From IMG/VR virus record IMGVR_UViG_3300035698_008831, positions 1-28,350 of that record: a stretch of DNA of 28,350 bases; one strand, 5' to 3'. This document shows, in pieces, positions 1-28,174 of this stretch (position 1 is the stretch's first letter; each line of letters begins with the position of its first letter). The position numbers were made by a program, and so were the translations under genes. The notes below the pieces were generated by a model. That model searched no databases, was not told where the DNA came from, and was given only the letters and a program-made list of their open reading frames with translations. The DNA comes from a virus.

Positions 1-75
1 GGTCGTCGTCGTGACCTCGGGCTCGGTCGTCGTCGTCGTGACCTCGGGCTCGGTCGTCGTGGTCGTGGTGGTCGT
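1..75 (-). repeat. 27-bp tandem coding repeat (TTTTTEPEV units)
   Basis: GTGACCTCGGGCTCG occurs at 11-25 and again at 38-52, a 27-bp period, with GTC/GTG triplet runs between. On the minus strand this encodes nine-residue Thr-rich units ending in EPEV. The array continues past the left edge, so the copy number is unknown. Confidence 0.75.
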
Positions 76-438
76 GGTCGTTGTGGTCGGTGTGCAGTTG
101 CCGCCGCGGCGGACGGTGCCGGTGCGGGTGCCGGTGGCCTGGTTTGACCAGCGGGCCGAAACGGTGAGCGACGCGGTCGAGGCGTCGCCGGTGGTGGCGG
201 TTGACGTCGTGAACGGGGTGTCGTTGGACTGAGGGCCGGCGGTGAACGGGGCCGTGATTGACCAGTCGAGGCCGTTGCCGGCCTGCCATGAGGTGATTGT
301 CCAGGCGACGGCGTAGGTGCCGTCGGTGGCGCATTCGGCGACGCCGGTGACGACGGGGTGATGCGCCGCGGCCGGCGCCGCTGGGAGGATGACGGCGGCG
401 GCGATGCCGCCGGCGAGGAGGATGGGCTTGAGCTTCAT
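1..438 (-). CDS. Secreted Thr-rich surface protein, partial (runs off left edge)
   Basis: The frame is open for 146 codons from an ATG at 438 to the window edge, so the C-terminus is missing. The start overlaps the upstream stop as ATGA. Residues 1-25 form a signal peptide: a MKLKP basic start, a hydrophobic core (ILLAGGIAAAVILPAAP) and an AAA-HH cleavage region. Residues about 27-115 look like a small beta-sandwich with one cysteine near each end (C36 in VAECAT, C114 in GGNCT), a pattern I associate with Ig-like domains of actinobacterial surface proteins. After that the chain becomes almost pure threonine with EPEV units repeating every nine residues (TTTTTEPEV), like a cell-wall-spanning or mucin-like linker. 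It is probably exported by the infected cell or displayed on the particle; the function is unknown. I infer the domain from pattern only. Confidence 0.7.
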   Translation of the reverse strand, partial: MKLKPILLAGGIAAAVILPAAPAAAHHPVVTGVAECATDGTYAVAWTITSWQAGNGLDWSITAPFTAGPQSNDTPFTTSTATTGDASTASLTVSARWSNQATGTRTGTVRRGGNCTPTTTTTTTTTTTTEPEVTTTTTEPEVTTTT

Positions 439-4005: not shown

Positions 4006-6210
4006 CTACCTGTCGGGCGCTTCCCACTCGAGCAGGACGTAGCCGGCGGCGTCGTTTGCGCCGTCGGTGAGGACGATGGGGACGACGCCGTCGGCCGAGC
4101 TCCACCATGACGAGCCGCCGCCGGCGCCGCCGGCCGAGAAATCGGTGCCGGGGCCGCTGTAGGGGCCGGATGCGCCGCCGCCGTACCATCCGCCGCCGCC
4201 GCCGGCGCCGTGACTGTGGAATGCGCCGGTCTGGTCGGGTGAATCGCCGCCCTGGCCGAACGTGCCTGCGCCGGCGCCGTCGCCGGGGATGCCGCCGGCG
4301 TATTGCGTCGCGCCGAGCCCTTGCTTGTTGTTCGAGCTGATGCCGTTGCCCTCGCCGTCGGCGCCCTCGAACGCGCCGCCGCCGCCGCCTTTCCAATTGT
4401 TGTTTGTCGGTGCGCCGCCGCCGCCGGCGGCGACGATGAGACTGTCGGCGAACGTTGTGCCGGTGCGGCGGATGGCGGAGGAGCCGCCGCCGCCGTGTCC
4501 TTCGTTGTTGGGGAATGCGCCGCCGGAACCGAGGCCGCCGTTGGGCCATCCGCCACGTAGCGCGCCGCTGCTGCCGGTCTGGCCCGACGCGGCGGCGTCG
4601 ATGTCCAGAATTTCGCCGGGGGTGACGGGGAACGTAGCGGTGATGAGCGCGCCGCCGCCGCCGATTGTCGGGTCGGAGGAGTAGCCGCCTACGCCGCCGG
4701 CGACGGTGGCGGTGAGCTCGGTGACGCCGTCGGGGACCTGGAACGTTTGCGTGCTGCCGGTGTCGACGTTGCTGGCGCCGTTCCAGTCGAACCGTTGCGA
4801 CGTGCCGATTGTCGGCGTTTGCCGGATTGCTCCCTGGGCGAGGATGTAGAACTTGACGCCGCCGGCGGCGATGTTGATGCCGTTGCCGATTGACGGGCCG
4901 CCGTCGGCGGTGGTTTGAACGCGGATGCGGTAGTCGTATTCGCCGGCGAGGTCCTCGAGGGCGAGGGTGTGCGCTTCGTGCGAGCGGACGCCGTCGGCGT
5001 AGGTGACGGTGAGCTCGTGGAGGACGACGTCGTTGGCGGCGTCGTAGAGCTCGAACGAAACGGTGCCGGCGCCGACGCCGACGAAATCGGCGTCGAGGTG
5101 ATAGTTGGCGCGGCCGCCGGTGCGGAACGCCAGCGGGAGCCGGTTGACGAAATAGAGCTGATCGTTGCGGACGCGTTGCTCGGCGACGTTGTTTTGAATG
5201 AACTGCACCCATTGCTCGGATGTTGACGGCCTCGAGGTTGAGCCGCCGACGTCGATGACGGGGAGGAGGTAACTGAGCTCGACCTGATCGCGGTGCGGTT
5301 CGTAGGGGTATCTGACGAGGCGGACGATGTTGGCGCGGCGGTCGTCGCCGAGGTCGGGGTCGAACACGCGGACACGGTCGGCGAGCTTGAGGTCCTCGCC
5401 GGTGCCGGTGAGCTCGGTGAGGTCGATGACGTCGAGCTCGTAACTGACGACGGGTTGCGCGAGGTCGGCGAGGGTGTCCTGAGCAAACGCGAGGAGCGCG
5501 GCCTCCTCGAGGAACGAGGCGTCGCTGACGAGGCGTTGCCGGGTGTGCAGGGTTCGGGCCTCGGCGAGGGTGAGGCCGGCGGCGGTGTAATAGCTGAAAT
5601 CTTCGACGAACTGGGCGCCGGCGTTGACGCCGGCGATGGTGAGGTCGTCGGCGCCGTAGGCGTAGAGCACGGTGGCGGCCGGCGCCGCGGTGCGCCGGCG
5701 GACGCCGGTGACGTTGCGGCCGTACCGGAACGACGTGCCGAGGTCGCGGCCGCGTGTGTCGACGAGGTCGACGGTGTTGTTGTAGGTGTTGAATGTGACG
5801 AACTTGCCGGTGATGCGGGCGATGACGCGGACGAGGTCGAGGACGGTGCGGTCCTGCTCCTCGACGTCGAACGTGGTGGTGTCGTCGGTGACCGAGCCGG
5901 GCGACCATCCTGAGCCGGCGAGGGCGTCGGTGATGAGGGCGGCGGGTGTCTGCGCGATCTTGGAGAACGAACCGGCGGCGAGGCGGCCGGCGAGGTCGAG
6001 CCAGGTGGCCGACGCGCGTATCTTGCGGACGAGCTCGGTGCCTTGCCGGACGTCCTCGATCTCGGTGATGCGATAGGTGCGGTCGTCGACGTCGAGGAGG
6101 CCGTCGACCTCGAGGAGGTCGGCCTTGACGCTGTCGCGTGGCAGGACACCGATGAGCTCCTCGGATTGGTCGAGGCGGGCGTCGGTGTAGAGCTCGCGCC
6201 ATTCGGTCAT
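4006..6210 (-). CDS. Tail hub / Tal-like protein with glycine-rich adhesin-like C-terminus (734 aa)
   Basis: Start ATG at 6210 follows GAGGAG by seven bases and overlaps the upstream stop. Residues about 1-340 resemble baseplate hub proteins of siphophages (prophage tail endopeptidase or Gp37-like): VARITGKFVTFNTYNN..VDLVDTRGRDLGTSFRYGRN, then YAYGADDLTIAGVN and SYELDVIDL. A middle beta-sandwich-like part spans about 345-465. From about residue 490 (TQTFQVPDGVTELTATVAG) to the end lies a glycine-rich domain with many GGGG/GGGA loops, N-rich turns and WYGGGASGP, the style of glycine-rich tail adhesins that vary between related phages. The hub closes the tail tube; the C-terminal domain probably contacts the host surface. 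Whether the N-terminal part is cleaved or enzymatic is not visible. Confidence 0.75.
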   Translation of the reverse strand: MTEWRELYTDARLDQSEELIGVLPRDSVKADLLEVDGLLDVDDRTYRITEIEDVRQGTELVRKIRASATWLDLAGRLAAGSFSKIAQTPAALITDALAGSGWSPGSVTDDTTTFDVEEQDRTVLDLVRVIARITGKFVTFNTYNNTVDLVDTRGRDLGTSFRYGRNVTGVRRRTAAPAATVLYAYGADDLTIAGVNAGAQFVEDFSYYTAAGLTLAEARTLHTRQRLVSDASFLEEAALLAFAQDTLADLAQPVVSYELDVIDLTELTGTGEDLKLADRVRVFDPDLGDDRRANIVRLVRYPYEPHRDQVELSYLLPVIDVGGSTSRPSTSEQWVQFIQNNVAEQRVRNDQLYFVNRLPLAFRTGGRANYHLDADFVGVGAGTVSFELYDAANDVVLHELTVTYADGVRSHEAHTLALEDLAGEYDYRIRVQTTADGGPSIGNGINIAAGGVKFYILAQGAIRQTPTIGTSQRFDWNGASNVDTGSTQTFQVPDGVTELTATVAGGVGGYSSDPTIGGGGALITATFPVTPGEILDIDAAASGQTGSSGALRGGWPNGGLGSGGAFPNNEGHGGGGSSAIRRTGTTFADSLIVAAGGGGAPTNNNWKGGGGGAFEGADGEGNGISSNNKQGLGATQYAGGIPGDGAGAGTFGQGGDSPDQTGAFHSHGAGGGGGWYGGGASGPYSGPGTDFSAGGAGGGSSWWSSADGVVPIVLTDGANDAAGYVLLEWEAPDR

Positions 6211-7700
6211 GTGATAACTCCTCGGCGGGTGCCCTCGAGGTCGGCGACCCAAACGTGCACGCGGCGCGGTTTGCGTTTGCGTGATGCCCTGGCGGTCAGG
6301 ACGGTCGACGCCGCGACGGGGAGGACGCCGACGGTTTCGACGAACTGGCCGGCGGTTTCGGCGACGACGACGGTGCTGACGGTGATGGGGAGGTCGGCGG
6401 CGGTGGCGAGGGCCTGGTTGGGGGCGGCGGCCTCGAACGACCATACGGCCGGGCGGCGACTTGTGAACGAGCCGGATGTAAATGCGACGGTGTTGGCGCC
6501 GGCGGTCGTTTTCGGGATGAGGGCGATGGTGGTGTCGGTGTCGCTGATGAGGGCGTTGTTCGGGTCGTCGCTGTCGGGGGTGGCAAGTCTCCAACCCCTG
6601 GCGTCGGGGAGGAGAACGAGGAGGACGTCGTCGTCGTTTGATGTGACGGGGCCGGTGCTGAGGCCGCCGCTGGAGCCGTTTATCTGCGCGCTGGATTCGT
6701 TCTCGGGGGTGCCGTCGACGAGGCCGCGGACGATCATCCAACCGCGGACGGCGTTGTTGAGGGCGCCGGCGGTCGTTGGCGGGGCCGAGGTGTTCCATGT
6801 GGGGTCGAAATCGGCGGCGCCGTTCGCGAAACGGCGGACGCCGATGGCGTTGTAGGTGGGGCCGGGTTGGTAGTCGAGCCATGCGGCATCGTTGATGGTG
6901 GCGGCGCTTTCGACGGCGGCGAACAGGATGATGCAGTCGCCGCCGGCGATGAGGGCGACCTCGTCGTCGTCTGGCATTGGGTAGGCGGTGCCGGCGGAGT
7001 AGTTGGCGGGGCCTTCCCATCCTGCGGCGACGATGAGGGGCCGTTCGACGGGGAGGGGGCCGGCGACGATGCTGGCGGCGACGGCCGGCGACTCGACGCC
7101 GACGTAAAGGGCGGAGTCGATTGTTGGAGCAAACGCGACGCCGGCGGGCGGGTCGTACCAAACGACGAGGTGCGTGCCGGTGTCGGTGCCTATCGAACTA
7201 TTGAACCTGTAGACGTAGTCGGCCGGCGGCGTGAACGCGTCGACGCCGACGGTGACGGTGGTGTTGTCGCCGGCGCCGACGATGCCGATGACGGTGCTGT
7301 TTTCGGTGGCCGGGGTGACCGATGGGAACGCGGTGAGGCCGGTGGTGTCGGCGAACGTTTCGACGGCGCTGTCGATGACGCCGGCCGACGCGGTGAGGTT
7401 GACGCCGATTATCGACCCCGCGGTTACCCCGCCGGTGGCGGCGGCTGTCATGTTTTCGTTTGTGTCGTAGTCGTCGAGAATGCCCCATATGACGCTGTTG
7501 CTATCGCCGGTGGCGGCGAGGCTGCCGGTGCTGACGCTGATGGCGCCGGCGGTGCCGCCGACGAAATAGGCGAAACCGATGACGGTTTGACCATCCCCCG
7601 GCCGGACGTTGTTGCCGGTAACGATGCTCGACGAGGTGCCGAAACCTGCCCGGGCGAGGACCTGCGGCGCGAACGATGGGGCGAGAGCTGGAACGCTCAC
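6207..7700 (-). CDS. Large beta-rich tail/virion protein (497 aa)
   Basis: I choose the GTG at 7700 because it lies seven bases past the previous stop and gives MSVPALAPSFAPQVL; longer versions run through the upstream gene. The chain is Ala/Thr/Ser/Val/Gly-rich with few charges and few Lys, typical of beta-structured virion proteins. It seems to contain two similar halves, about residues 20-190 and 225-440, each built as a beta-sandwich with an AAP..V or GG..VI..A pattern. The C-terminus turns basic (RASRKRKPRRVHVWV). Sitting between two tail-tip genes, it is probably a minor tail protein or fibre component. No family is recognised with confidence. Confidence 0.65.
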   Translation of the reverse strand: MSVPALAPSFAPQVLARAGFGTSSSIVTGNNVRPGDGQTVIGFAYFVGGTAGAISVSTGSLAATGDSNSVIWGILDDYDTNENMTAAATGGVTAGSIIGVNLTASAGVIDSAVETFADTTGLTAFPSVTPATENSTVIGIVGAGDNTTVTVGVDAFTPPADYVYRFNSSIGTDTGTHLVVWYDPPAGVAFAPTIDSALYVGVESPAVAASIVAGPLPVERPLIVAAGWEGPANYSAGTAYPMPDDDEVALIAGGDCIILFAAVESAATINDAAWLDYQPGPTYNAIGVRRFANGAADFDPTWNTSAPPTTAGALNNAVRGWMIVRGLVDGTPENESSAQINGSSGGLSTGPVTSNDDDVLLVLLPDARGWRLATPDSDDPNNALISDTDTTIALIPKTTAGANTVAFTSGSFTSRRPAVWSFEAAAPNQALATAADLPITVSTVVVAETAGQFVETVGVLPVAASTVLTARASRKRKPRRVHVWVADLEGTRRGVIT

Positions 7701-11605: not shown

Positions 11606-11733
11606 AGGGTGCCCTCCATCGCCGGGACTGAGCCCTTGAAATGGCGCTCGGCGGCGACGAGGGCGACCGGGCGGAGGACGACCTCGAGGAGCTCGCCGTC
11701 GTCGAGCTCGACGCTGACCTTGACGCGTTGCAT
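11473..11733 (-). CDS. Tail assembly chaperone (gpG-like, 86 aa)
   Basis: The start overlaps the major tail protein's stop (TAATG). The protein opens MQRVKVSVELDDGELLEVVLRPVALVAAERHF and then carries helices (WAVHYQLRIEEPFGAWLERIEGV), ending in a short Pro/Ala/Ser tail (PTPAAASAPSPTSP). Size, location between major tail protein and tape measure, and the overlapping -1 frame downstream all match the first of the paired siphophage tail chaperones. These are assembly factors, not part of the finished particle. Confidence 0.75.
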   Translation of the reverse strand: MQRVKVSVELDDGELLEVVLRPVALVAAERHFKGSVPAMEGTLWAVHYQLRIEEPFGAWLERIEGVDEVVADPTPAAASAPSPTSP

Positions 11734-12287
11734 TACGCGAACGAGCTGGTGTCAGAGGTGAACATGAACCATGGGTCGACGCCGTCCTCGCCGATGGCCT
11801 CGAGCTCGACGGGGAGGAGCGCGAGGTCGCTGCGGTTGAGGTTCGTTTCGAGGGCCGACGTGACGATGCACTTGGGGATGACGTAGCGGTCGGTGATGCT
11901 GCCGTCGGTGATGTCGATGACGAGGCTGTATTCGCTGATCTGGCCGGCGGTGTGCGGGGTGAACTTGCTACCGCTGCCGGCCGCCGTGACGGTGCCGCCG
12001 CCGGCGGCGAGGGCGAGGGTGTCGGTGTTCCACTGCTCGAGCTGGAACGACGCCATCGCCATTCGGGCCGTTTCGATGATGCGGACGGGGTAGAACGACT
12101 GCCATGCCTGCTTTTTCTCGATGGTCGGCTCGTCGTTGAACGTGACGCCGTCCTCGTCGGTGTAGCCGATGTCGACGAAATCGCCGGCGAGGGGGCCGTC
12201 GTAGGCGGAGGGGAGGGTTGCGCCGAAATTGGCGATGTAGACGCTGCCGGTGCCGGCGACGCGTGTCTGTGCTGTGTCCTTTGCCAT
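11733..12287 (-). CDS. Major tail protein (184 aa)
   Basis: A beta-rich protein of the size usual for siphophage tail-tube subunits, ahead of the chaperone/tape-measure block. It reads AGTGSVYIANFGATLPS, then GDFVDIGYTDEDGVTFNDEPTIEKKQAWQSFYPVRIIET, the typical tail-tube beta-hairpin region where a short loop follows a description of level or offset, and ends with WFMFTSDTSSFA. Many copies form the hollow tail tube. An AAGGA box precedes the ATG at 12287 by about eleven bases. The gene is preceded by a 90-base gap, one of the few in the tail module. Confidence 0.8.
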   Translation of the reverse strand: MAKDTAQTRVAGTGSVYIANFGATLPSAYDGPLAGDFVDIGYTDEDGVTFNDEPTIEKKQAWQSFYPVRIIETARMAMASFQLEQWNTDTLALAAGGGTVTAAGSGSKFTPHTAGQISEYSLVIDITDGSITDRYVIPKCIVTSALETNLNRSDLALLPVELEAIGEDGVDPWFMFTSDTSSFA

Positions 12288-14181: not shown

Positions 14182-15102
14182 TCACGTCTTGGCGTGGTGG
14201 AATGCGACGCCACAAGCGTCGCGCATCTCGGCGTAGCCGTAGAGCACGTCGAGCGTGATCTGCACGCCGAGGTAGTCCGCGCTGTAGCTCGCGGTCTGCC
14301 GGATGGCGAGCTGGCTGATGGGGTCCACCATGACCATCTGAGACACGCCGGGGGCCTCGGCGGTCGGGAGGGCTCGCATGGCGAGCACGCCAAACTCGGG
14401 GGTGCCTGCGATGCCGGTGGCGCCGGCGCCGCCGGACGGGACGAGCTGCGACATGTAGATATCGGCGCCGTAGGCGGACCCGATCATGCCGTTGCTGATG
14501 CCGTCGGGCTTGCTGTTCGCGAAGTACGTTTGCAGGTTGGAATCGCCGAGGAGGTCGACCTCGCCGGCCGGGCCGACGATGATAAACCGGCCGTCGAGCG
14601 GCGCCTTATTCGTGTTCAACTGCTGACGCGCTGCGAGGAGCGTGGCGTTGGTCGGGGCCGTCGCGGGGTTGCCCACGTTGGTCGAGAAACCGGCGGCGAG
14701 CGTGAGCACGTCGAGCTCGATCTTCTCGGCCAGCGCGACCGCTGCCTGCCGGGTGTGGCTGGCGACGGTGTCCTGATTGGCCTGAGCTCGTGCGGGGTCC
14801 TCGACGAGGAAACTGACCTCGTGATGCTGGTCGAGGGTGACCTGCACGGTGCCGGCGCTCGGGTTCTGCAACGTGACCGCGGTGCCCTTGGCCTTGGCGT
14901 TCGTCGAGAACGTGCCGGGGACGGGGATGTTGAGGACGTCGCCGACGGTGAACGAGCCAGTGACGTCGGTGTCCTTCGTGATGAGGCGGGCCGCGACGAT
15001 CTGGTTGCGGAGCACCTCGAGGGCGCTGTTTGCCCAAATCTCGGGGATGAAATTGCCGAGGGCGCCGGCGCCGCCGGTTGCGTTGGTGAATGTGTTTGCC
15101 AT
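14182..15102 (-). CDS. Major capsid protein (306 aa)
   Basis: The most abundant virion protein by position, immediately after the scaffold. It reads NFIPEIWANSALEVLRNQIVAARLITKDTDVTGSFTVGDVLNIPVPG near residues 18-65, then AEKIELDVLTLAAGF and a DGRFIIVGPAGEVDLL strand, with C-terminal beta elements. This N-terminal pattern (IPE.W....L..L.....A..L......) fits the HK97-fold coat proteins of the P22/N4-like branch that use a separate scaffold and need no prohead protease. An AAAGG box lies upstream. The codon use appears somewhat more mixed than in neighbouring genes, as expected for highly expressed coat genes; I did not count it. Confidence 0.85.
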   Translation of the reverse strand: MANTFTNATGGAGALGNFIPEIWANSALEVLRNQIVAARLITKDTDVTGSFTVGDVLNIPVPGTFSTNAKAKGTAVTLQNPSAGTVQVTLDQHHEVSFLVEDPARAQANQDTVASHTRQAAVALAEKIELDVLTLAAGFSTNVGNPATAPTNATLLAARQQLNTNKAPLDGRFIIVGPAGEVDLLGDSNLQTYFANSKPDGISNGMIGSAYGADIYMSQLVPSGGAGATGIAGTPEFGVLAMRALPTAEAPGVSQMVMVDPISQLAIRQTASYSADYLGVQITLDVLYGYAEMRDACGVAFHHAKT

Positions 15103-19550: not shown

Positions 19551-20996
19551 CTACTGCGCCGGGGCGAGCTCGTTGTCGAGCTCCTCGGCCGCCGGCGCCG
19601 GTGCGGTCGGCGCCGACGGGCGAGGTGCCTGCGGCGGCGTGCGCGGTGCGGACGCTGCGGCGGCGAGGTCGGCGCGTGCGGCCTGGGCGCGCCAGCGGGC
19701 GACCTCGGCCGGCGTGGCGCCGTACTGCTGCCAGAGGGCCTCATTGGGGACGCCGAGGCTGCCGAGCTTGACGAGGGCGTCGACGAGCTCGCCGACGTTC
19801 TTCTTTTCGGGGTCGCGCCAGACGACCTCGAGCGAATCGTCGGCGGCGCGGGCGTCCTGCATCGCGGCGAGCGCGAGGCGTATGACGTCCTCCCATGACT
19901 CGCCGAACGCGAGGGCGCGCGACTCGACTTTCGCGACGAGGCCGGTTTCGGTGGCCTTGAGCGACTCGCCGGACGGAAACGCGCCGGACTGACCGAGGAG
20001 GTAGTGCGGCGGCGTGCGCGAAATGGCGGCGAGGTGCTGGATGTCTGACTCGACGCTGTCGATGAATGGCTTGAGGTCGGTGGCGCCGAACTCGCCGAAC
20101 TTGACGTCGGCGTCCTCGGCGAGCCAAAGGCGGTCGATGGCGGCGCGGAACGGTTCGATGGGCTTGCCGGTGTCGGGGTCGATGGGGACGTCGAGGCCGG
20201 TGGCCCATCGCTGCCGGAATGCCGAATAGCGGGCGGCGGTGATGCGGTTGAAAAGTGTCTCGTTGATGCGGTCCTGAATGTCGGTGATGCCGCCGTCGAG
20301 CTCGCTGACGCCGGCGCCTACCATGCGCCGTTTGTTGTGGAACGGGACGAACGAAACGACGCCGAGCGGGTTGACGAACGCGGGGCCGGGGTCGTCGGTG
20401 TCGGCGTGCGGTTGCCACTCCTTGCCGTTGAGCTCGCGGAGCCACTTGTAGACCATGGCGGCGCCGTCCTCGGTTTCGTCGGCGGCGAGCTGCACGGTTA
20501 CGACCTCGTGGCCGTCGACCTCGTACCGTTTGACGGCGGCGCGGCGGACGCTGCGACGGCCGGGGGCCTGCTCGACGTAGACCTCGGTGGGGTGCTCGGT
20601 GCTGACGATGGGGGCCTCGCCGGCGGCCGGCGAGGGCCAGACGAGGACCGAGGCGGTGCCGCCGATGAGGGCCTCGGTGTGAACCTGGCCGTGCTCGGCG
20701 TCGAGGCCGTTGGGCTGCCAGATAGTGCGCCAGATGTCGAGGTCGGCGTCGGCGCCGTTGCCGAAACGGACGCCGTCGACGATGAGGCGCTCGGCGGTGG
20801 CGTCGACGATGAGCTCGCACCAATTCGACCGGGCGAGGCGCATGAGGCGGAGGAACTCGCCGCGGGCGCCGGCGGGCGCGTCGGGGAGCGGGTGGTTGCC
20901 GGTGTAGTAGGCGTCGCCGGTGGCGTGATATTGGGCTTGGCTGTCGAGCTGCTCGAGGAGGTGGTCGCGCCAGTCGGACGGGGTGCGGAGCTTCAT
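19551..20996 (-). CDS. Portal protein (SPP1 gp6-like, 481 aa)
   Basis: The dodecameric ring through which DNA is packaged. The N-terminus (DHLLEQLDSQAQYHATGDAYYTGNHPLPD) and the following WCELIVDATAERLIVDGVRF fit the SPP1-type portal family. The clip/stem region is helical (VSELDGGITDIQDRINETLFNRITAARYSAFRQRW), followed by FKFGEFG-like strands and a crown helix that begins ISRTPPHYLLG. The C-terminal 60 residues are Ala/Pro-rich and disordered. GAAAGG lies nine bases upstream of the ATG. The terminase genes are separated from it by an inserted glycan cassette. Confidence 0.9.
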   Translation of the reverse strand: MKLRTPSDWRDHLLEQLDSQAQYHATGDAYYTGNHPLPDAPAGARGEFLRLMRLARSNWCELIVDATAERLIVDGVRFGNGADADLDIWRTIWQPNGLDAEHGQVHTEALIGGTASVLVWPSPAAGEAPIVSTEHPTEVYVEQAPGRRSVRRAAVKRYEVDGHEVVTVQLAADETEDGAAMVYKWLRELNGKEWQPHADTDDPGPAFVNPLGVVSFVPFHNKRRMVGAGVSELDGGITDIQDRINETLFNRITAARYSAFRQRWATGLDVPIDPDTGKPIEPFRAAIDRLWLAEDADVKFGEFGATDLKPFIDSVESDIQHLAAISRTPPHYLLGQSGAFPSGESLKATETGLVAKVESRALAFGESWEDVIRLALAAMQDARAADDSLEVVWRDPEKKNVGELVDALVKLGSLGVPNEALWQQYGATPAEVARWRAQAARADLAAAASAPRTPPQAPRPSAPTAPAPAAEELDNELAPAQ

Positions 20997-21021: not shown

Positions 21022-21618
21022 TCACGGTACTACTCGCGAGGGGAGGCCGGACGTGTTACGGGCGTGGTGATGCCAGAGCCAGGTGACGCTGTCGGTGACC
21101 GCGGTGCCACCAATCTCGGCCATAGCAACGAAAACGGGCTCGTCTTGGACCTCCCACGCGCCGGTTCCCGCGGGGTCGGCCTGGAATCCTCCGGTGGACG
21201 CCATGGCCTCGAATAGGACCTCGGTGCGGGCGAGGTAGGTGATGGGGACGATGTGCGGGGCGGCCGGGTCGAACGGGCGGCCGCGGTGCTGCGGGAACGG
21301 GTCGGTGCCGCCGATGACGTCGAACCAGCCCCACGCGAGGCCGGCGCCGGCGGCGGTGGCGAGGTCGAGGAGCGTGGCGAGGTGATGCGGGAGGAGCTCG
21401 TCGTCGTCGTCGAGGAACGCGACCCATGGCGTGCGGACGTGGAGGAGGCCGCGGTTGCGGTTCTCCCATGCGCCGACGCCGTCGAGGTCGTTGCTGATGA
21501 CGACGGCCGCCGGCGGGTGTGTCTGGCGTGACGTCGAGCCGACGGCGCGCTGCAATAGGCGGGCGCGGGCGGGAATGGTCGGGATGACGACGGTGACGTC
21601 GCGGGCGTGGTCAATCAT
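21022..21618 (-). CDS. GT-A glycosyltransferase, GT2-like (198 aa)
   Basis: The start overlaps the membrane-protein stop by eight bases. VTVVIPTIPARARLLQRAVGS near residues 8-28 is the first strand and nucleotide-binding turn of GT2 enzymes. FLDDDDELLPHHL (68-80) carries the metal-binding Asp cluster. A later LAWGWFDVIGG and the EVQDEPVFVAMAE stretch near residue 160 could hold the acceptor side. Length is short for the family, with only a catalytic core. Sugar donor and acceptor cannot be seen from sequence. It is the last gene of the cassette before the portal. Confidence 0.8.
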   Translation of the reverse strand: MIDHARDVTVVIPTIPARARLLQRAVGSTSRQTHPPAAVVISNDLDGVGAWENRNRGLLHVRTPWVAFLDDDDELLPHHLATLLDLATAAGAGLAWGWFDVIGGTDPFPQHRGRPFDPAAPHIVPITYLARTEVLFEAMASTGGFQADPAGTGAWEVQDEPVFVAMAEIGGTAVTDSVTWLWHHHARNTSGLPSRVVP

Positions 21619-21877
21619 CGGTGAGGTCCTCGGGGTAGGTGGCGGACAACGTGGCGCGGCGCTCGACGACGGGCTCGTCGTCGGGGATGGGGACGCCGGG
21701 CGGTGGGCCTTGCCGGGCCTCGAGGGCGCGGAACGCGATGATGGCGGCGGTGAGCCAGCCGACGCCGGCGACCAGGATGGCGAGCGGTTGCGGCCGGCCG
21801 ACGACGGCGACGGCGAGCGCGCCGAGCGCGAAACCGGCGGACCATGCGAGCTCGCGGCAGAACTGGCGGCGCGTCAT
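21611..21877 (-). CDS. Small membrane protein of the glycan cassette (88 aa)
   Basis: The ATG at 21877 overlaps the epimerase stop. A short basic start (MTRRQFCREL) precedes two hydrophobic segments, about residues 11-30 (AWSAGFALGALAVAVVG) and 34-53 (LAILVAGVGWLTAAIIAF), then a charged, acidic C-terminus. It could anchor or recruit the glycosyltransferases to the membrane, or handle a lipid-linked sugar; this is inference from neighbours. No family recognised. Confidence 0.6.
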   Translation of the reverse strand: MTRRQFCRELAWSAGFALGALAVAVVGRPQPLAILVAGVGWLTAAIIAFRALEARQGPPPGVPIPDDEPVVERRATLSATYPEDLTDD

Positions 21878-22791
21878 CGGGCGGCCTCGGCGAGGGCGCG
21901 GGCGATGCCCTCCTCGAGGGTGACCTCGGGGCGGTAGTAGCGGGCGAGGCGGTCGATGCTGCCGACGCGGTACTCGACGCCGACGGGACGGTCGGCGAGG
22001 GTGCGAATGGTCGGGCGGTAGCCGGCGGCGTCGGTGACGAGCTCGGCGAGCTCGAGGAACGAGGTGGGGCGGCCGGTGGCGAGGTTGACGGCCTCGTCGA
22101 CCTCGAGCTCGGCGAGGCGGACGATGGCCTTGACGACGTCGTCGATGTGGATGAAATCGCGGACCTGTGTGCCGGTGCCCCAAACGTCGAACGGGTCGGC
22201 GCGCCGGCGGGCGCGGTCGATGAACGAGGGGAATGGATAGTCGAGGGCCTGGTCGCCGCCGTAGCCGCTGAACGGGCGGACGACGGTGACGGGGACGCCG
22301 TCGGCGCGGGCGGCGAGGGCCATGCGCTCGCCGACGAGCTTGACGAAACCGTAGGTGTTGTCGGGCGCCATCGTTGCGCCGGCGGGGTCGAGCCAGTCCT
22401 CGACGAGGTGCGTGCGGCCGCCGTGGCGCTGCATGATGACGGGGTAGGCGGCCGAGCTCGAGAGGTAGACGATGCGCGCCGGGCGGGTGCGTTGCGCCCA
22501 TCGCCAGAGGGCGGCGTCGAGCTCGAGGTCGATGGCGGCGAGCTGGAACGGTTCGGCGTCGATGAACGTGCGGCCGCCGACGACGGCGGCGGCGTGGACG
22601 ACGAGGTCGTAGCACTCGACGCCGGTGCGGAAATAGTCGAGGGCGTCGCCGCCGGTGACGAGGTCGACGGTGTCGACGTGCCAGCCTTGCCGGACGAGCT
22701 CGTCGACGAGGTGGCGGCCGACGAAACCGGCCGAGCCGGGGACGAGCGCGATGGGTTGGTCGGCGGGGAGGCGGTGCCGGCGGTGAATCAT
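21874..22791 (-). CDS. NAD-dependent sugar epimerase/dehydratase (extended SDR, 305 aa)
   Basis: The ATG at 22791 overlaps the preceding stop (ATGA); a longer frame is shadow sequence. GSAGFVG (residues 19-25) is the dinucleotide-binding loop, D43 fits the cofactor-ribose Asp, SSSAAYP (111-117) is the catalytic Ser region, and Y147..K151 (NTYGFVK) the catalytic pair. RPFSGYGG and RDFIHIDD later are typical of UDP-/GDP-sugar epimerases and dehydratases. It would convert a nucleotide sugar into the donor used by the neighbouring transferases. Exact substrate and reaction cannot be told; epimerase, dehydratase and reductase remain possible. Confidence 0.9.
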   Translation of the reverse strand: MIHRRHRLPADQPIALVPGSAGFVGRHLVDELVRQGWHVDTVDLVTGGDALDYFRTGVECYDLVVHAAAVVGGRTFIDAEPFQLAAIDLELDAALWRWAQRTRPARIVYLSSSAAYPVIMQRHGGRTHLVEDWLDPAGATMAPDNTYGFVKLVGERMALAARADGVPVTVVRPFSGYGGDQALDYPFPSFIDRARRRADPFDVWGTGTQVRDFIHIDDVVKAIVRLAELEVDEAVNLATGRPTSFLELAELVTDAAGYRPTIRTLADRPVGVEYRVGSIDRLARYYRPEVTLEEGIARALAEAAR

Positions 22792-23348
22792 CGGACGCGC
22801 TCGGCGGTGTGAATCTGGCAACGGAAACCGGCGGGCCAGTGCATGACGTGGTAGTCGAGCTCGAGGTAGTCGAGGGGGCGCCAGCCGGCGGCCTTGAGGA
22901 GCTCGATGATGCCGGCCTTATCCCATCGCCAGAGGTGCTCGACGTTGGCGCCGGCGGGCTCGTCGAGCGGCGTGGAAAGGATGAGGCCGCGGCCGGCGTA
23001 CCATGCCGCGCGGAGGAGCTGGGCGGGGTCGTCGACGTGCTCGAGAATCTCGCCGAGGACGACGAGGTCGGCCATGCTAACCGAGGCGCCGAGGTAGTCG
23101 GCGGCGTCGATGCCGCTGACGGCGTAGTCGTTGACGAGGGCGAGGTCGCCGGCGAGGTCGGCGGCGGCGCGGCCGGTGCCGGCGGCCGGGTCGATGACGG
23201 TGCTGCGCTCGGCGAAACGGGAGCGGGCGAGGGCGACGGTGATGTCGACGCGGGCGGTGTGCTCGCGCCAGCGGTCGGCGTCGTTCGGTTCGGCGTAGAG
23301 CTCGGCGAGCTCGGCGGCGGTAGGTGTCGGGCGTAGGCGCTCGATCAT
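22788..23348 (-). CDS. SAM-dependent methyltransferase (186 aa)
   Basis: GAGGAGG lies eight bases before the ATG. The Rossmann-like core shows motif I TVIDPAAGTGRAAADLA (about residues 50-66), a DYAVSGIDAADYLG acidic loop, and LGEILEHVDDPAQLL (98-112), the LEH.....D motif of class I methyltransferases. A short C-terminus ends in HWPAGFRCQIHTAERV. The protein is compact and may methylate a sugar, a small molecule or a nucleic acid; its cassette context favours sugar or glycan O- or N-methylation. Target unknown. Confidence 0.8.
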   Translation of the reverse strand: MIERLRPTPTAAELAELYAEPNDADRWREHTARVDITVALARSRFAERSTVIDPAAGTGRAAADLAGDLALVNDYAVSGIDAADYLGASVSMADLVVLGEILEHVDDPAQLLRAAWYAGRGLILSTPLDEPAGANVEHLWRWDKAGIIELLKAAGWRPLDYLELDYHVMHWPAGFRCQIHTAERVR

Positions 23349-23376
23349 GGTGGGGACCTCCTCGGTGGTCGGTTGC

Positions 23377-23958
23377 TTATTGGATGGGGGCGAGGTCGAC
23401 GACGAACATGCGCGAGGCGCGGCCGGCCGAGGCCTCGCCGGTGAGCGGCGGGACGATGTTGCGCTCGACGACGAACGCGCGGTCGAGGTGATGCTCCTCG
23501 TCGAGCTCGGCGGCGATGGTGGCGGGCCAGGATGCGCCGAGGACGTCCTCGATGATGAACGTGCCGCCGGCGGCGAGGAGCGGGATGTAGTGGCGGGCGG
23601 CGTAGACCATGCTTTCGAGGGTGTGCGGGCCGTCGTCGATGATGACGTCGAACGGGCCGAGCTCGGCGATGCGGTCGACGGTGCCGGGCTTGTAGGCGTC
23701 GCCGATGATGACGTCGACGCCGGCGGGCCAGTCGATGACGCCGGGGTCGTTGAGGTCGACGCCGACGATGTTGGCCTCGAGGAACGCGTCGGCCCAAACG
23801 CGGAGCGACTCGCCGGACTGGACGCCGAGCTCGAGGACGTGGCGCGCCGTCGGCCGGTGCCGGCCGAGGAGGATGTCGTAGACCTCGCCGTAACGGTGAA
23901 AGTAGCCCTTGTCGGTGTTGTGGGCGAGGCAGAGCTCGGCGATGGTCGAGGCGGTCAT
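23377..23958 (-). CDS. SAM-dependent methyltransferase, MycE-like (193 aa)
   Basis: The ATG at 23958 overlaps the previous stop (ATGA). The opening CLAHNTDKGYFHRYGEVYDILLG and VLELGVQSGESLRVWAD (41-57), then GVDLND (66-71) and DVIIDDGPH (104-112), form a class I methyltransferase pattern I associate with the MycE-type/glycan-cluster methyltransferases, where an NTDKG..H.Y...Y start is common. The ASWPATIAAEL region may close the pocket. It most likely methylates a sugar hydroxyl. Two consecutive but dissimilar methyltransferases suggest two different positions or acceptors. Confidence 0.8.
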   Translation of the reverse strand: MTASTIAELCLAHNTDKGYFHRYGEVYDILLGRHRPTARHVLELGVQSGESLRVWADAFLEANIVGVDLNDPGVIDWPAGVDVIIGDAYKPGTVDRIAELGPFDVIIDDGPHTLESMVYAARHYIPLLAAGGTFIIEDVLGASWPATIAAELDEEHHLDRAFVVERNIVPPLTGEASAGRASRMFVVDLAPIQ

Positions 23959-24716
23959 CGGACGGCGTTGAGGGCGTTGAGGGCGTCGGCGTGCTCGAGG
24001 TCGAGGTAGCGGCGGAAACGGGCCTCGTCGGCGGTGTAGAGCTCGGGGGCGTTGACCTCGCGGTAGCCGTCGTCGAGCTCGGCGGTGCCGGCGAGCGGGT
24101 GGCAATGCTCGATGACGACGTCGCTGAGGTAGGTGAGCGTGCCGAGGTCGCGGCCGAGGCGGTGCCAGTAGTCGTCGAGGTAGAGGTGCACGGCGCCAGG
24201 AGGGACGAAGTAGCCGAGCTCGAGGACGATGGCGGCGCCGAGGACGACGGCGGTGGGGAGGCGCTCGCCTTGGATGAGGTCGTTGCCGTAGACGACGGCG
24301 AACGGGTCGCGGTCGAGCTCGTCGGCGAGGCGGGCGTCCCATCCTGGCGTTCGGGGCCGGTGGTCATCGCCGAGGAAACCGACGCCGAGGCGGTTGGCGG
24401 CGAACACTGGCGCGAGGGCGTTGAGGGTGCCGCCGAGGCGGAGGCGCTCGCCGATGACGACGCGGACGCCGTCGGGGAGCTCGAGGCCTGACGCGTCGTC
24501 GATGCCGAGGGCGTAGAGGTAGCGGTCGAGGGCCGGGTCGTCGTCGTCGAGCGCGATGACGAGCTCGGCGTAGCCGCCGGTGGCGGTGTCCTGCCATGCG
24601 GCGATGAGGTCGATGACGTTGCCGGGCCGGCCTCGTGACGGGACGATGATGACGACGGGCTCGACGATGTCGTCGGCGAGCTCGGCGACTGAGGAGGGCG
24701 GTGAGGTGCGGGTCAT
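23955..24716 (-). CDS. GT-A glycosyltransferase-like protein (253 aa)
   Basis: The ATG at 24716 overlaps the upstream stop. VVIIVPSRGRPGNVIDLIAA (residues 21-40) is a GT-A first strand and loop; LDDDDP (56-61) and GDDHRPRTPGWD (116-127) are likely nucleotide- and metal-binding acidic motifs. A hydrophobic region near residues 145-170 may be an acceptor-side loop. The C-terminus is helical, ending DALNALNAVR. It is likely to transfer one sugar of the cassette product. Family is broad GT2-like; donor unknown. Confidence 0.75.
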   Translation of the reverse strand: MTRTSPPSSVAELADDIVEPVVIIVPSRGRPGNVIDLIAAWQDTATGGYAELVIALDDDDPALDRYLYALGIDDASGLELPDGVRVVIGERLRLGGTLNALAPVFAANRLGVGFLGDDHRPRTPGWDARLADELDRDPFAVVYGNDLIQGERLPTAVVLGAAIVLELGYFVPPGAVHLYLDDYWHRLGRDLGTLTYLSDVVIEHCHPLAGTAELDDGYREVNAPELYTADEARFRRYLDLEHADALNALNAVR

Positions 24717-25843
24717 GCTGAAACCCTAGACCGGGCGGCGTTGTCGAGGGCGGCCTGCCAGGCGTCGACGTAGCCGTCGATGTGCTCCTCGATGGTGAGG
24801 CGGGCGGCGACGCGCTTGCCGGCCTGGGCGAGCTCGGCGCTGTAGTCGTCGTCGACGAGGAGGCGCTTGAGGACGCGATGCCAGTCTCGGGGGCGCTCGA
24901 CGATGACGCCGGCGCCGAGCTCGGCGAGGCGGCGATATTCGGCCGTCGGGGACGCTGCGAACGGGACGCCGACGGCGGCGAACTCGAGGCCCTTGAGGTG
25001 TGACTTGGCCTCGTTGAACGGGGTGAGGGCGAGCGGGACGATGCCGACGTCGAGGAGCGACATGCCGACGGGGTACTTGGCGAGGGGGAGCCAGCCGCCG
25101 GTGCTCGCGACCTTGGTGCCGGCGGCGAGGCCGAGGTGCCTGACGAGGCGGGCGTCGTTGTCGCCGATGATGTGGAACGGGAGCTCGAGCTCGCGGAGGA
25201 CGCGGCCGACGGCGCCGCGGGTCTGCGGGAGGTCGTCGGGGTGCGTGTCGATGTTGCCGGACCAGCCGAGGCGGAGGTCGACGTCGCCGGGCTCGCGTGC
25301 CGGCGGTTCGATGTGGAGGTAGCCGGTGGGGACGTAGTTGGGGATGACGCGAACGCGGCCGTGGCGGCCGTAGCGGGCGGCGAGGGCCGGCGTGCTGACG
25401 GTGACGAGGTCGGCGAGCTCGGTGGCCTCGCGGAGGACGGCGGAGCTGCGGCCGCCGTTGTGGGCGGCGAGGTGGGGCTGCACGGTGTGCCATGCGGTAT
25501 TGCGCGGGTCGATGGTGTCGAAATCGTCGTCGACCTCGATGACGACGGCGACGCCTTGGGCCTTGAGGCCTCGGATGACGTTGAGGAGCTGCGGGATGAG
25601 CGGGCGCTGCAGTATGACGACGTCGGCGTCGACCTGGACGTCGAGCTCGTCGCTGAGGACGGGCCGGCCGGCGATCATGGTGGCGGCGCGGTTGACGCGG
25701 ACGGGGAACGCTGCGGCGCCGTCGTCGTCGGGCGTGCGGATGTCGACGTCGGCGGCGTCGTTGTAGTGGACGGCCTGCGCGGGCCAGATCACGCGGTAAT
25801 GGCCGCACCCTCCCATATCGGCGGCGTGTGCTTGCACTTTCAT
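24713..25843 (-). CDS. GT-B glycosyltransferase, GT4-like (376 aa)
   Basis: I use the ATG at 25843, which has GAGGAGG six bases upstream; the much longer upstream frame is shadow of the terminase gene. The protein opens MKVQAHAADMGGCGHYRV, has VVIEVDDDFDTIDP (100-113), TVSTPALAARY (148-158), VIPNYV (166-171), LGWSGNIDTHPDD (192-204) and, in the second domain, PLALTPFNEAKSHLKGLEFAAVGVPFAAS (270-298). This order is the GT-B fold of GT4-like transferases. It overlaps the next GT gene by ATGA. It probably adds a sugar from the epimerase product; acceptor unknown (virion protein, DNA or host surface). Confidence 0.8.
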   Translation of the reverse strand: MKVQAHAADMGGCGHYRVIWPAQAVHYNDAADVDIRTPDDDGAAAFPVRVNRAATMIAGRPVLSDELDVQVDADVVILQRPLIPQLLNVIRGLKAQGVAVVIEVDDDFDTIDPRNTAWHTVQPHLAAHNGGRSSAVLREATELADLVTVSTPALAARYGRHGRVRVIPNYVPTGYLHIEPPAREPGDVDLRLGWSGNIDTHPDDLPQTRGAVGRVLRELELPFHIIGDNDARLVRHLGLAAGTKVASTGGWLPLAKYPVGMSLLDVGIVPLALTPFNEAKSHLKGLEFAAVGVPFAASPTAEYRRLAELGAGVIVERPRDWHRVLKRLLVDDDYSAELAQAGKRVAARLTIEEHIDGYVDAWQAALDNAARSRVSA

Positions 25844-25871: not shown

Positions 25872-27746
25872 CTAGCTGAAACCGTAGGCGCGTTTGATCT
25901 TCTTGGGTGGCGGGCGGAGCATGGCGCGGGCGAGCGCGTTGACGATGGCGGCGATGCCGTCGATGCGCTTGGCGGACTTGTGGCGGTCGGGCTTGGAGGG
26001 CTTGAGGTTGCCGCCGGGGTCCTGCATGACGGCGACGTTGTCGGCCTCCCATCGGAGGAGCGGGTTGCCGCCGTGAACGAGGAGCGGGAGCTCGACGGTC
26101 GAGCCCATGACGAGGCGCTCGAGCTCTTTGCATGGGGCGGTGAGCGCGGGGTAGGTCTGGCGGAGCGGGACCATGGTGCGGCCGGCGTTCTGCATTTCTT
26201 GGACTGTTTCGGACGCGTTCCATGGGTCGAACGCGACCTCGTGGAGCTGGGCGCCGAGGAGCTCGAGGCGGGCGTCGATGTCGTTGCGGACCTTGGCGTA
26301 GTCGACGACGTTGCCCTCGGTGGCGATGAGCCAGCCGTCGGCGACCCATTGCGCCAGGGGGACCGCGAGCTTGCGCTCGAGCTCCTCGATGCGCTCCTCG
26401 GGGAGCCAGTGCATGACGTCGGCGTAGTAGCCGGCGGCGCGGGCGACGCGCTCGAGCTGCTCGGTGACGTCGTCGTCGCTGAGGCCGTCGAGCTCGAGGT
26501 CGCCGTCCTCGTCGAGGATGGGCGCGTCGGCGTCGACGAGGTCGGGGCGGTCCTCGGGCGGTATCGGGCAGAGGAGCGCGAACGCGGTGAAATCGGACGA
26601 GCTCGAAAGGTCGAGGCCGCCGAACGCTTGCCGGCCGCGGAACGCGTGCTCGAGGTCGAGCTCGCCGGCGGCGGCGTCCCATCGCTCGAGGGGGAGCCAG
26701 CGGTCGAGCTGCTTTGTCCTGACGTTGAGGTGCAGGCGGAGGTAGCGGTTGAGCTGCGCCGGCGACTGGCGGGCCTCCTCGGCCTTGGCGGTGAGGTAGT
26801 CCTCGTGGACGGTGTAGCCCATGCCGGGGTTCGCTGCGGCGATGGTGGCGGGGGCGAACGGGTCGAAACCGTCGGCGGCCTTGTCGGCGCCGAACACGAC
26901 GCCGCGGAACGTCGGGTCGACGATGCTGCCGGCGACAATTCCCTCGAGGTACTCGCGTTTCGTGGCGTACACGGACCCATCGGCGCCGTCGTCGGCCGTC
27001 GTGATGAACAGCGTGAGCGGTTGCTCGCGTGAGCCGGTGCCAGTCTCGAGGGCGTCGATGAGGTCGGGCGACTTGTGGACGTGGACCTCGTCGATGACGT
27101 TGCCGTGCAGGTTGAGGCCTTGCTGCCGGGCGCCGTCGGCGCTGACGGCCTTGAACCAGCCGGCGCCGCCGTTGCACTCGATGACGTGCGTGCGGAGGTC
27201 GTCGCCGAACTTCTTGCGCCAGTACGGCGACGCCATCGCCATCGCCCTCGAGGGCTTGAACACGAGGCCGGCCTGCGAGCGGTCTGCGGCCGCTGCGGCG
27301 ACCTGCGGGGTGTTCTCGCCGTCGTCGCCGAACAGATAGAGCGCGAGGCCGCTGCATAGGGTCGATTTGCCGTTCTTGCGGGGAATCTCGAACCAGAGGA
27401 CGCGGACGATGCGCCGGCCGTCGGGCGCGACCCAACCGAAAACGGGGGCGATGGCGTAGCGGACCTGAAAATCGAGGAGGACGAACGGCTTGCCGGCCCA
27501 CTTTCCCATGAGCTGCCGCGACCTGGCGACCGAGGCGAGCACGCGGTCGACGCGATGCCAGCGAAACTCGAGCGGGAGCGTCGGCGGTGTCTCGAGGAGC
27601 GGGGCGTAGTCCCAATCGGTGCCGATGATCTTGCCGAGCTTGACGCGACTGTCGACGTATCGCTCGAGCTCGGCGATGGCGGTGCGCTCGGTGCGGAGCT
27701 TGGCGGTGTATTGCTCTCCCCATGCGGGCGTTCGGCGTGCTCCCAT
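25872..27746 (-). CDS. terL: Terminase large subunit (624 aa)
   Basis: The ATG at 27746 overlaps the small-subunit stop (ATGA), giving MGARRTPAWGEQ; the longer frame is shadow. The ATPase half carries a deviant Walker A, IPRKNGKST (121-129), Walker B NVIDE (about 216-220) with EVHVHK after it, and a coupling motif LFITTADD (246-253). The nuclease half has GGLDLSSSSDFTAF with D379 as a likely metal ligand, as in Terminase_1/HK97-like families. It cuts concatemeric DNA and drives it into the prohead. A basic C-terminus (PPKKIKRAYGFS) ends the protein, 28 bases before the next gene. Confidence 0.93.
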   Translation of the reverse strand: MGARRTPAWGEQYTAKLRTERTAIAELERYVDSRVKLGKIIGTDWDYAPLLETPPTLPLEFRWHRVDRVLASVARSRQLMGKWAGKPFVLLDFQVRYAIAPVFGWVAPDGRRIVRVLWFEIPRKNGKSTLCSGLALYLFGDDGENTPQVAAAAADRSQAGLVFKPSRAMAMASPYWRKKFGDDLRTHVIECNGGAGWFKAVSADGARQQGLNLHGNVIDEVHVHKSPDLIDALETGTGSREQPLTLFITTADDGADGSVYATKREYLEGIVAGSIVDPTFRGVVFGADKAADGFDPFAPATIAAANPGMGYTVHEDYLTAKAEEARQSPAQLNRYLRLHLNVRTKQLDRWLPLERWDAAAGELDLEHAFRGRQAFGGLDLSSSSDFTAFALLCPIPPEDRPDLVDADAPILDEDGDLELDGLSDDDVTEQLERVARAAGYYADVMHWLPEERIEELERKLAVPLAQWVADGWLIATEGNVVDYAKVRNDIDARLELLGAQLHEVAFDPWNASETVQEMQNAGRTMVPLRQTYPALTAPCKELERLVMGSTVELPLLVHGGNPLLRWEADNVAVMQDPGGNLKPSKPDRHKSAKRIDGIAAIVNALARAMLRPPPKKIKRAYGFS

Positions 27747-28174
27747 CAGGCGAACGGGTCGATGTCGTCGTCGAGGTCCTCGGCGGCCTCGATGAGGCGG
27801 AGCTTGGCGCGGTCGGCCGGCGTGAGGCCGAACTTGGCGGCGAACGCGCCGATGGTGGCGCCGGCGTCGCGGGCGACCTGTAGCGCGGGGTTCTTGACGT
27901 AGCTGGCGCGCTGCTTGACCATGACGCCGCGCTCGTTGACGTGCTTGGTGGCGCGGGAATGAACGACGACGGCGGTGACGAACACGGCGAACGTGTCGAC
28001 ATCCCACGCGGTCAGGACGCCGCGCTCGGCGAGCGACGGCGCGAGGCGGTGCCAGACGGCGACGGCGTCGAGGTCGAGGTAGCTGGGCGGGTCGAGCTGC
28101 TCGAGCTCGGGCGCGATGTCGCGGCCGTGCTTGTCGACGCCGGTGACGTCGGGCTTGGGGCCTCGCTTACCCAT
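27746..28174 (-). CDS. terS: Terminase small subunit (P27 family, 142 aa)
   Basis: GAGGAGG lies six bases before the ATG at 28174. MGKRGPKPDVTG opens the P27-type pattern, then PPSYLDLDAVAVWHRLAPSLAERGVLTAWDVDTFAVF, and KNPALQVARDAGATIGAFAAKFGLTPADRAKL near the end, all familiar from P27-like terminase small subunits. It binds DNA at the packaging start site and recruits the large subunit, which it overlaps by ATGA. Size and order are standard. Confidence 0.93.
   Translation of the reverse strand: MGKRGPKPDVTGVDKHGRDIAPELEQLDPPSYLDLDAVAVWHRLAPSLAERGVLTAWDVDTFAVFVTAVVVHSRATKHVNERGVMVKQRASYVKNPALQVARDAGATIGAFAAKFGLTPADRAKLRLIEAAEDLDDDIDPFA

Follow-up and report, generated by a model that had tools for sequence, protein, structure and literature searches.

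Genes of the terL-portal interval

The window analysed here was the entire 28,350-bp IMG/VR virus record, which is linear and probably a fragment of a phage genome. Its minus strand was found to contain terS and terL, followed by a cassette of seven genes, portal, a MuF-like head/protease gene, scaffold, capsid, connectors, major tail, tape measure and Dit (Table 1). The original prediction had placed a seven-gene cassette between terL and portal, and all seven open reading frames were recovered in this interval, over 4.8 kb at positions 21022-25843 and all on the minus strand, in the order GTB, GTA1, MT2, MT1, SDR, TM and GTA2 from terL. The prediction of one GT-B and two GT-A glycosyltransferases (GTs), two class I methyltransferases and an extended SDR was borne out by Pfam and PHROG matches and by fold models of GTA1 and MT1. 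The run is mostly overlapping, as had been described, with ATGA overlaps at GTB/GTA1, GTA1/MT2, MT1/SDR and SDR/TM, an 8-bp overlap at TM/GTA2 and a single internal gap of 28 bp from MT2 to MT1. The start of GTB was found 28 bp after the terL stop, and 25 bp separated GTA2 from portal. The GC3 and codon usage of the cassette matched those of the flanking head genes.

Two further features were observed in the window. Positions 1-330 (minus strand) encode a protein that looks secreted: its start resembles a signal peptide, it contains a Thr run (TTTTEPEV repeats) and it continues past the contig end. A 98-nt tRNA-Gly was called by ARAGORN at 4382-4479 (plus strand); it lies in a region rich in GCC repeats, antisense to a long open reading frame of the tail/lysin region, and looks spurious.

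Table 1. Cassette genes, flanking genes and candidate acceptors in the window
Feature	Position	Strand	Basis
terS (flank)	27746..28174	-	PF05119, phrog_83
terL (left cassette boundary)	25872..27743	-	PF20441/PF03354, phrog_9
GTB, GT-B type glycosyltransferase, 376 aa	24713..25843	-	PF13524 1.1e-6, phrog_7162 2e-33
GTA1, GT-A glycosyltransferase, 253 aa, anchor of widespread module	23955..24716	-	phrog_14945 2.9e-51; predicted GT-A fold
MT2, metal-dependent sugar O-methyltransferase-like, 193 aa, accessory	23377..23958	-	PF13578; MycE/TylE matches
MT1, class I methyltransferase, 186 aa, core	22788..23348	-	weak PF13489; family alignment; predicted fold
SDR, extended, nucleotide-sugar epimerase/reductase type, 305 aa, core	21874..22791	-	PF01370 5e-32
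TM, small hydrophobic membrane protein, 88 aa, accessory	21611..21877	-	hydropathy peak 2.16
GTA2, GT-A (GT2-like) glycosyltransferase, 198 aa	21022..21618	-	PF00535 2.7e-12, phrog_14775
portal (right cassette boundary)	19551..20996	-	PF05133, phrog_104 4e-117
Major capsid protein, putative acceptor	14182..15102	-	homologous to the same gene downstream of cassette in L009, L012, L093
Major tail protein, putative acceptor	11733..12287	-	phrog_117 3.9e-32

Conservation in close relatives

The genes terL and portal had been expected to be adjacent as a rule, and in the 61 homologous terL loci without the cassette their distance was found to be 12-97 bp (median 34), as compared with 4.3-6.9 kb in close relatives containing it. 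Close relatives were defined by terL or portal of 58-86% identity (terL 58-83% in those with both flanks). Seven of these were distinct; terL was present in six (L009, L010, L012, L095, L100 and L173) and L099 ends before terL, while L093 and L094 are other portions of an L095-like stretch and L011 and L013 are duplicates of L012. All seven contained GTB-GTA1-MT-SDR-GTA2 in the terL-portal gap, in the same order and on the same strand. As this core set was kept in every distinct close relative and the gap is only 12-97 bp elsewhere, the cassette is more than a chance assembly. The major capsid protein of the window was 91% identical to its L093 homologue.

MT2 was not found at the terL-portal site of any close relative, L095 containing 85 bp in that slot, and TM was found only in the nearest of them, L093-L095 (57-61% identical). 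This patchiness points to a core of five genes plus swappable extras. In L009, a relative with 71% terL identity, a metallopeptidase-like gene was present at 6460-7002 between GTA1 and MT1; it occupies the slot of MT2 in the window, so the position appears swappable. In comparison with L095, MT1 and SDR (window 21874-23348) showed faster protein divergence than terL, portal, GTB and GTA1. Selection was not inferred from dN/dS between the window and L095, since dS is unreliable at GC3 >0.9 (terL and portal already at ~0.48).

Glycosyltransferases

GTB was kept in all close relatives and matched gp165 of Arthrobacter phage Atuin at 39%. GTA2 matched Zukovirus gp106/107 at 41-44% and Atuin-group phages at 38-40%. 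Single relatives of the cassette glycosyltransferases were found in some isolated phages: the Atuin-group Arthrobacter phages, Zukovirus and Stanwilliamsviridae.

GTA1 gave no Pfam match. Its model, based on a 71-sequence alignment, showed a GT-A glycosyltransferase fold (pLDDT 94.3), and the motifs GDD and HxH were invariant across the 71 relatives. In structure comparison (VIA), the scores for ppGalNAc-T2 (Z 17.2) and for WrtF, a bacterial GT-A fucosyltransferase (Z 17.0), were tied, and no sequence match of GTA1 to polypeptide GalNAc-transferases (GT27) was found. The fold match is common to polypeptide GalNAc-transferases and to ordinary GT2 sugar-to-sugar transferases and thus leaves the acceptor type undecided.

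Methyltransferases, SDR and TM

The best PDB matches of MT2 were the macrolide sugar O-methyltransferases MycE (2.6e-13) and TylE (8.4e-12). The metal-binding and base residues described for the MycE active site (PMC9275233), Asp275, His278, Glu303 and Asp304, correspond to D109, H112, E137 and D138 of MT2, so that the catalytic domain and the Asp/His/Asp site (Asp275, His278, Asp304) are common to MycE/TylE and MT2. The N-terminal part of MycE of ~180 residues is lacking, residue 7 of MT2 being aligned to MycE chain residue 185. MT2 is therefore closest to characterised sugar O-methyltransferases, an activity predicted here from homology and retained residues. The model of MT1 showed a class I methyltransferase fold (pLDDT 87); reading its substrate off the fold was ruled out, as many class I methyltransferases tie at Z 14-16.

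The best profile matches of SDR were GDP-mannose 3,5-epimerase, GDP-fucose synthase, MoeE5 and UDP-GlcA 4-epimerase. The motifs GxxGxxG and YxxxK were conserved in 46 relatives, the Ser/Tyr/Lys site was kept and a C-terminal region of the sugar-nucleotide type was present, as in extended SDRs acting on sugar nucleotides. Assignment as GDP-mannose 3,5-epimerase or GDP-fucose synthase, in which 3,5-epimerisation depends on an acid-base pair of Cys and Lys/His, was rejected, as the Cys position was Ala in 46/46 aligned relatives and the Lys position was not Lys. With the Ser/Tyr/Lys site kept and the 3,5-epimerase Cys replaced by Ala, SDR is likelier to be a C4 epimerase or a reductase, judged by the mechanism of the family. 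These properties of MT2 and SDR give good support to the core of the earlier proposal, in which a modified, methylated sugar is predicted to be made by the phage and attached to some acceptor.

Distribution of the GTA1-MT1-SDR unit

Viral contigs were scanned with GTA2, GTA1 and GTB and bacterial genomes with GTA1; gene calls outside the window were made by a homology-weighted script and not by curated annotation. A same-strand SDR was found within 6 kb of GTA1 in 68/80 viral loci and 25/27 genomic loci, as against 0/75 control loci (840 kb), the loci having been picked by similarity and some lineages being counted through several contigs. The gene order GTA1-MT1-SDR was kept in 41/45, and the pairwise distance matrices of the three genes were correlated (r 0.46-0.60, 0/999 permutations). 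The three genes are a real unit that travels together and turns up in dozens of soil-actinobacterial phages that are unrelated to each other. Absence counts are lower bounds, as viral records can be incomplete.

Of the 27 genomic matches, 25 belonged to Streptomyces, Nonomuraea, Actinomadura, Spongiactinospora or Micromonospora; prophages with the unit include those of cultured Streptomyces parvus, S. olivaceus and Nonomuraea basaltis. In most of the actinobacterial prophages the unit was 3-8 kb upstream of terL-portal. Several arrangements, at different positions in unrelated lineages, were seen in the set of 61 non-redundant loci, with the unit embedded in or adjacent to virion genes and the neighbours identified being portal, major head, protease, tape measure, major tail, minor tail, tail fibre and holin. 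The head and packaging placements were terL|portal, portal-protease-MCP-module and module-MCP; those of the head-to-tail and tail region were MCP-GTs-module-major tail-TMP and TMP-tail-module, and others were beside minor-tail/holin genes and beside tail-fibre arrays. Prophages of Spongiactinospora genomes (L319 and L327) contained portal-MCP-extra GT (phrog_34859-like)-GTA1-MT1-SDR, as did the viral contigs L177, L196 and L200. The original prediction had named, as a finding that would contradict it, related phages with these genes in an unrelated island away from the head module. This was borne out only to a limited extent, by single relatives that lie by DNA-metabolism genes in some large Streptomyces and Arthrobacter phages; the core was mostly in or beside virion genes.

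Comparison with known systems

In the Corndog group (cluster O), an O-methyltransferase and three GT genes lie between portal and protease, and expected capsid peptides were missing (PMC4351075). Corndog (AY129335, NC_004685) was represented by Firecracker and Catdawg in the comparisons. Both cassettes insert several GTs and an O-methyltransferase, tightly overlapping, into the head operon by portal. However, that of the Corndog group lies on the other side of portal (portal-capsid protease), an SDR and a second methyltransferase were found only in the window cassette, and the GT families differ, the only score against Firecracker being a marginal one for GTA2-gp35 (0.013).

According to PMC12363180, glycosylated virions have been reported for Che8, Corndog and Myrna, and the results of Freeman 2023 are given as quoted in PMC12363180 and PMC12619734. 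For the phage GTs Che8 gp108-gp110, glycosylation of virion proteins has likewise been reported, but they lie near the right genome end without a methyltransferase or SDR and gave weak matches only (GTA2-gp108 3.6e-5, GTA1-gp108 0.21). Homology of the cassette GTs to Che8 gp108-110 or Firecracker gp33-36 was rejected, as the profile search gave nothing significant for GTA1 and GTB and weak GT2-type scores for GTA2.

In the isolated Actinoplanes phage phiAsp2, a GTA1 homologue was present by a GT2 gene, near head and tail genes (pas33-pas35). It is fused to a PF13578 methyltransferase, the Pfam family of MT2, and lies three genes past the putative major head gene, forming one protein, unlike the separate GTA1 and MT2 of the window. 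A match to phiAsp2 Pas34 was also given by the viral-structure search, and no SDR or GTB was found in this phage by profile search. The GTA1-PF13578 fusion (pas34, L338 13937-15727) may explain the label "DNA methyltransferase" of PHROG 2675. In Zukovirus (KimJongPhill and Zuko) the set was split over two loci, with UDP-glucose dehydrogenase-methyltransferase-GTB homologue directly before terS-terL-portal and GT-MT-GTA2 homologue at the second; SDR was not found there and no GTA1 homologue was detected.

The window cassette would work like the Corndog-group and Che8 cassettes but with different GT families.

Probable function of the cassette

The cassette is probably (about 0.68) a late-expressed virion-glycosylation module, whose expression timing, sugar, transferase order, MT1 substrate and acceptor we infer. 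SDR would convert a host nucleotide sugar into a C4-type epimerised or reduced form, and a short glycan would be assembled by the cytosolic GTA1, GTB and GTA2 on at least one virion protein, the likeliest acceptors being the major capsid, tail-tube and distal-tail proteins. O-methyl groups would be added by MT1 and, in this phage, by MT2, and the product would be an epimerised or reduced, O-methylated glycan on the particle. GT genes and an O-methyltransferase were found inside the virion gene operon, as in cassettes of the Corndog/Che8 kind. The virion is favoured as the acceptor because, in unrelated phages as well as prophages, the unit repeatedly lies among genes for head, tail and packaging, and because DNA-acceptor enzymes are mostly absent. 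Of the three acceptors allowed by the original prediction (a virion protein, DNA or the host surface), this context narrows the choice to the virion. The prediction had also named Ser/Thr-rich stretches as possible acceptors; that of Dit is real, with 14/30 S/T at residues 125-154, and is the only one that stands out, but nothing ties such stretches to glycosylation. The relatives of single GTs by DNA-metabolism genes (Stanwilliamsviridae and Atuin-like phages) are a point against virion glycosylation, and TM has no place in this explanation and is left unexplained by it.

Modification of the host surface, with the enzymes altering a glycan of the cell wall in the course of infection or lysogeny (to exclude superinfection, in a manner resembling serotype conversion), is an unlikely alternative account of the same genes. 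Phage GT genes are capable of such modification, the module is carried by prophages, the window cassette contains a small membrane protein and a late-region position is equally compatible with modification late in infection. This account is weakened because membrane machinery is lacking: neither a flippase-like protein nor a polytopic GT was present within the cassette, no clear membrane segment was found in GTB or GTA2, and the hydrophobic stretch of GTA1 sits within the folded GT-A domain of the model. Serotype conversion of the Gtr type, with a flippase, a membrane-anchored bactoprenol glucosyltransferase and a polytopic GT, was rejected on these grounds, the 88-aa TM being the one hydrophobic protein. 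TM is not conserved among the relatives, and the prophage copies lie by terS-terL-portal in the late direction and not by lysogeny genes.

Phage DNA glycosyltransferases are well known, and GTA1 relatives are present by replication genes in Stanwilliamsviridae; glycosylation by the cassette of a hydroxymethylated or otherwise activated base of phage DNA is nevertheless very unlikely, as the enzymes that make a DNA acceptor are scarce. When 49 carrier records (possibly incomplete) were compared with PF12851, PF00145 and PF00303, a C5-MTase-like match in 12/49 and a thymidylate-synthase-fold gene in one lineage of four spoke for this account. Against it, that fold was limited to 4/49 and Tet_JBP to 2/49 (1 above cut-off), many carriers being >70 kb. 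No gene for an acceptor-base enzyme was among the annotations of the 28 kb fragment, and the genes with which the module is linked are those of the virion. Action on a secreted product or small molecule that has nothing to do with the particle, with an incidental late-region position, is hardly plausible, for although MT2 and SDR resemble actinomycete natural-product tailoring enzymes, no aglycone-making gene was present, the positions among virion genes are repeated and independent, and the precedents in isolated phages use such genes for the virion.

A broader form of the virion-glycosylation proposal is offered tentatively and may well not hold: GTA1-MT1-SDR could be a widespread, undescribed virion-decoration system of actinobacterial phages and prophages that builds an unusual methylated sugar, with GTA1 founding a GT-A family specific to phages that attaches the first sugar to virion polypeptides and evolved independently of the Che8 and Corndog enzymes. 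No description of the module was found in a literature search.

To our knowledge, reports of virion glycosylation are confined to a few mycobacteriophages. The recurrence of the core module among virion genes would suggest that sugar-coated particles are common in actinobacterial phages, by means of enzyme families other than those studied. Shielding from antibodies has been reported for mycobacteriophages, and in soil viruses a sugar coat would need another reason. The module supplies concrete genes and cultured strains, with prophages in Streptomyces, Nonomuraea and Actinomadura, in which the purpose of such a coat may be asked.
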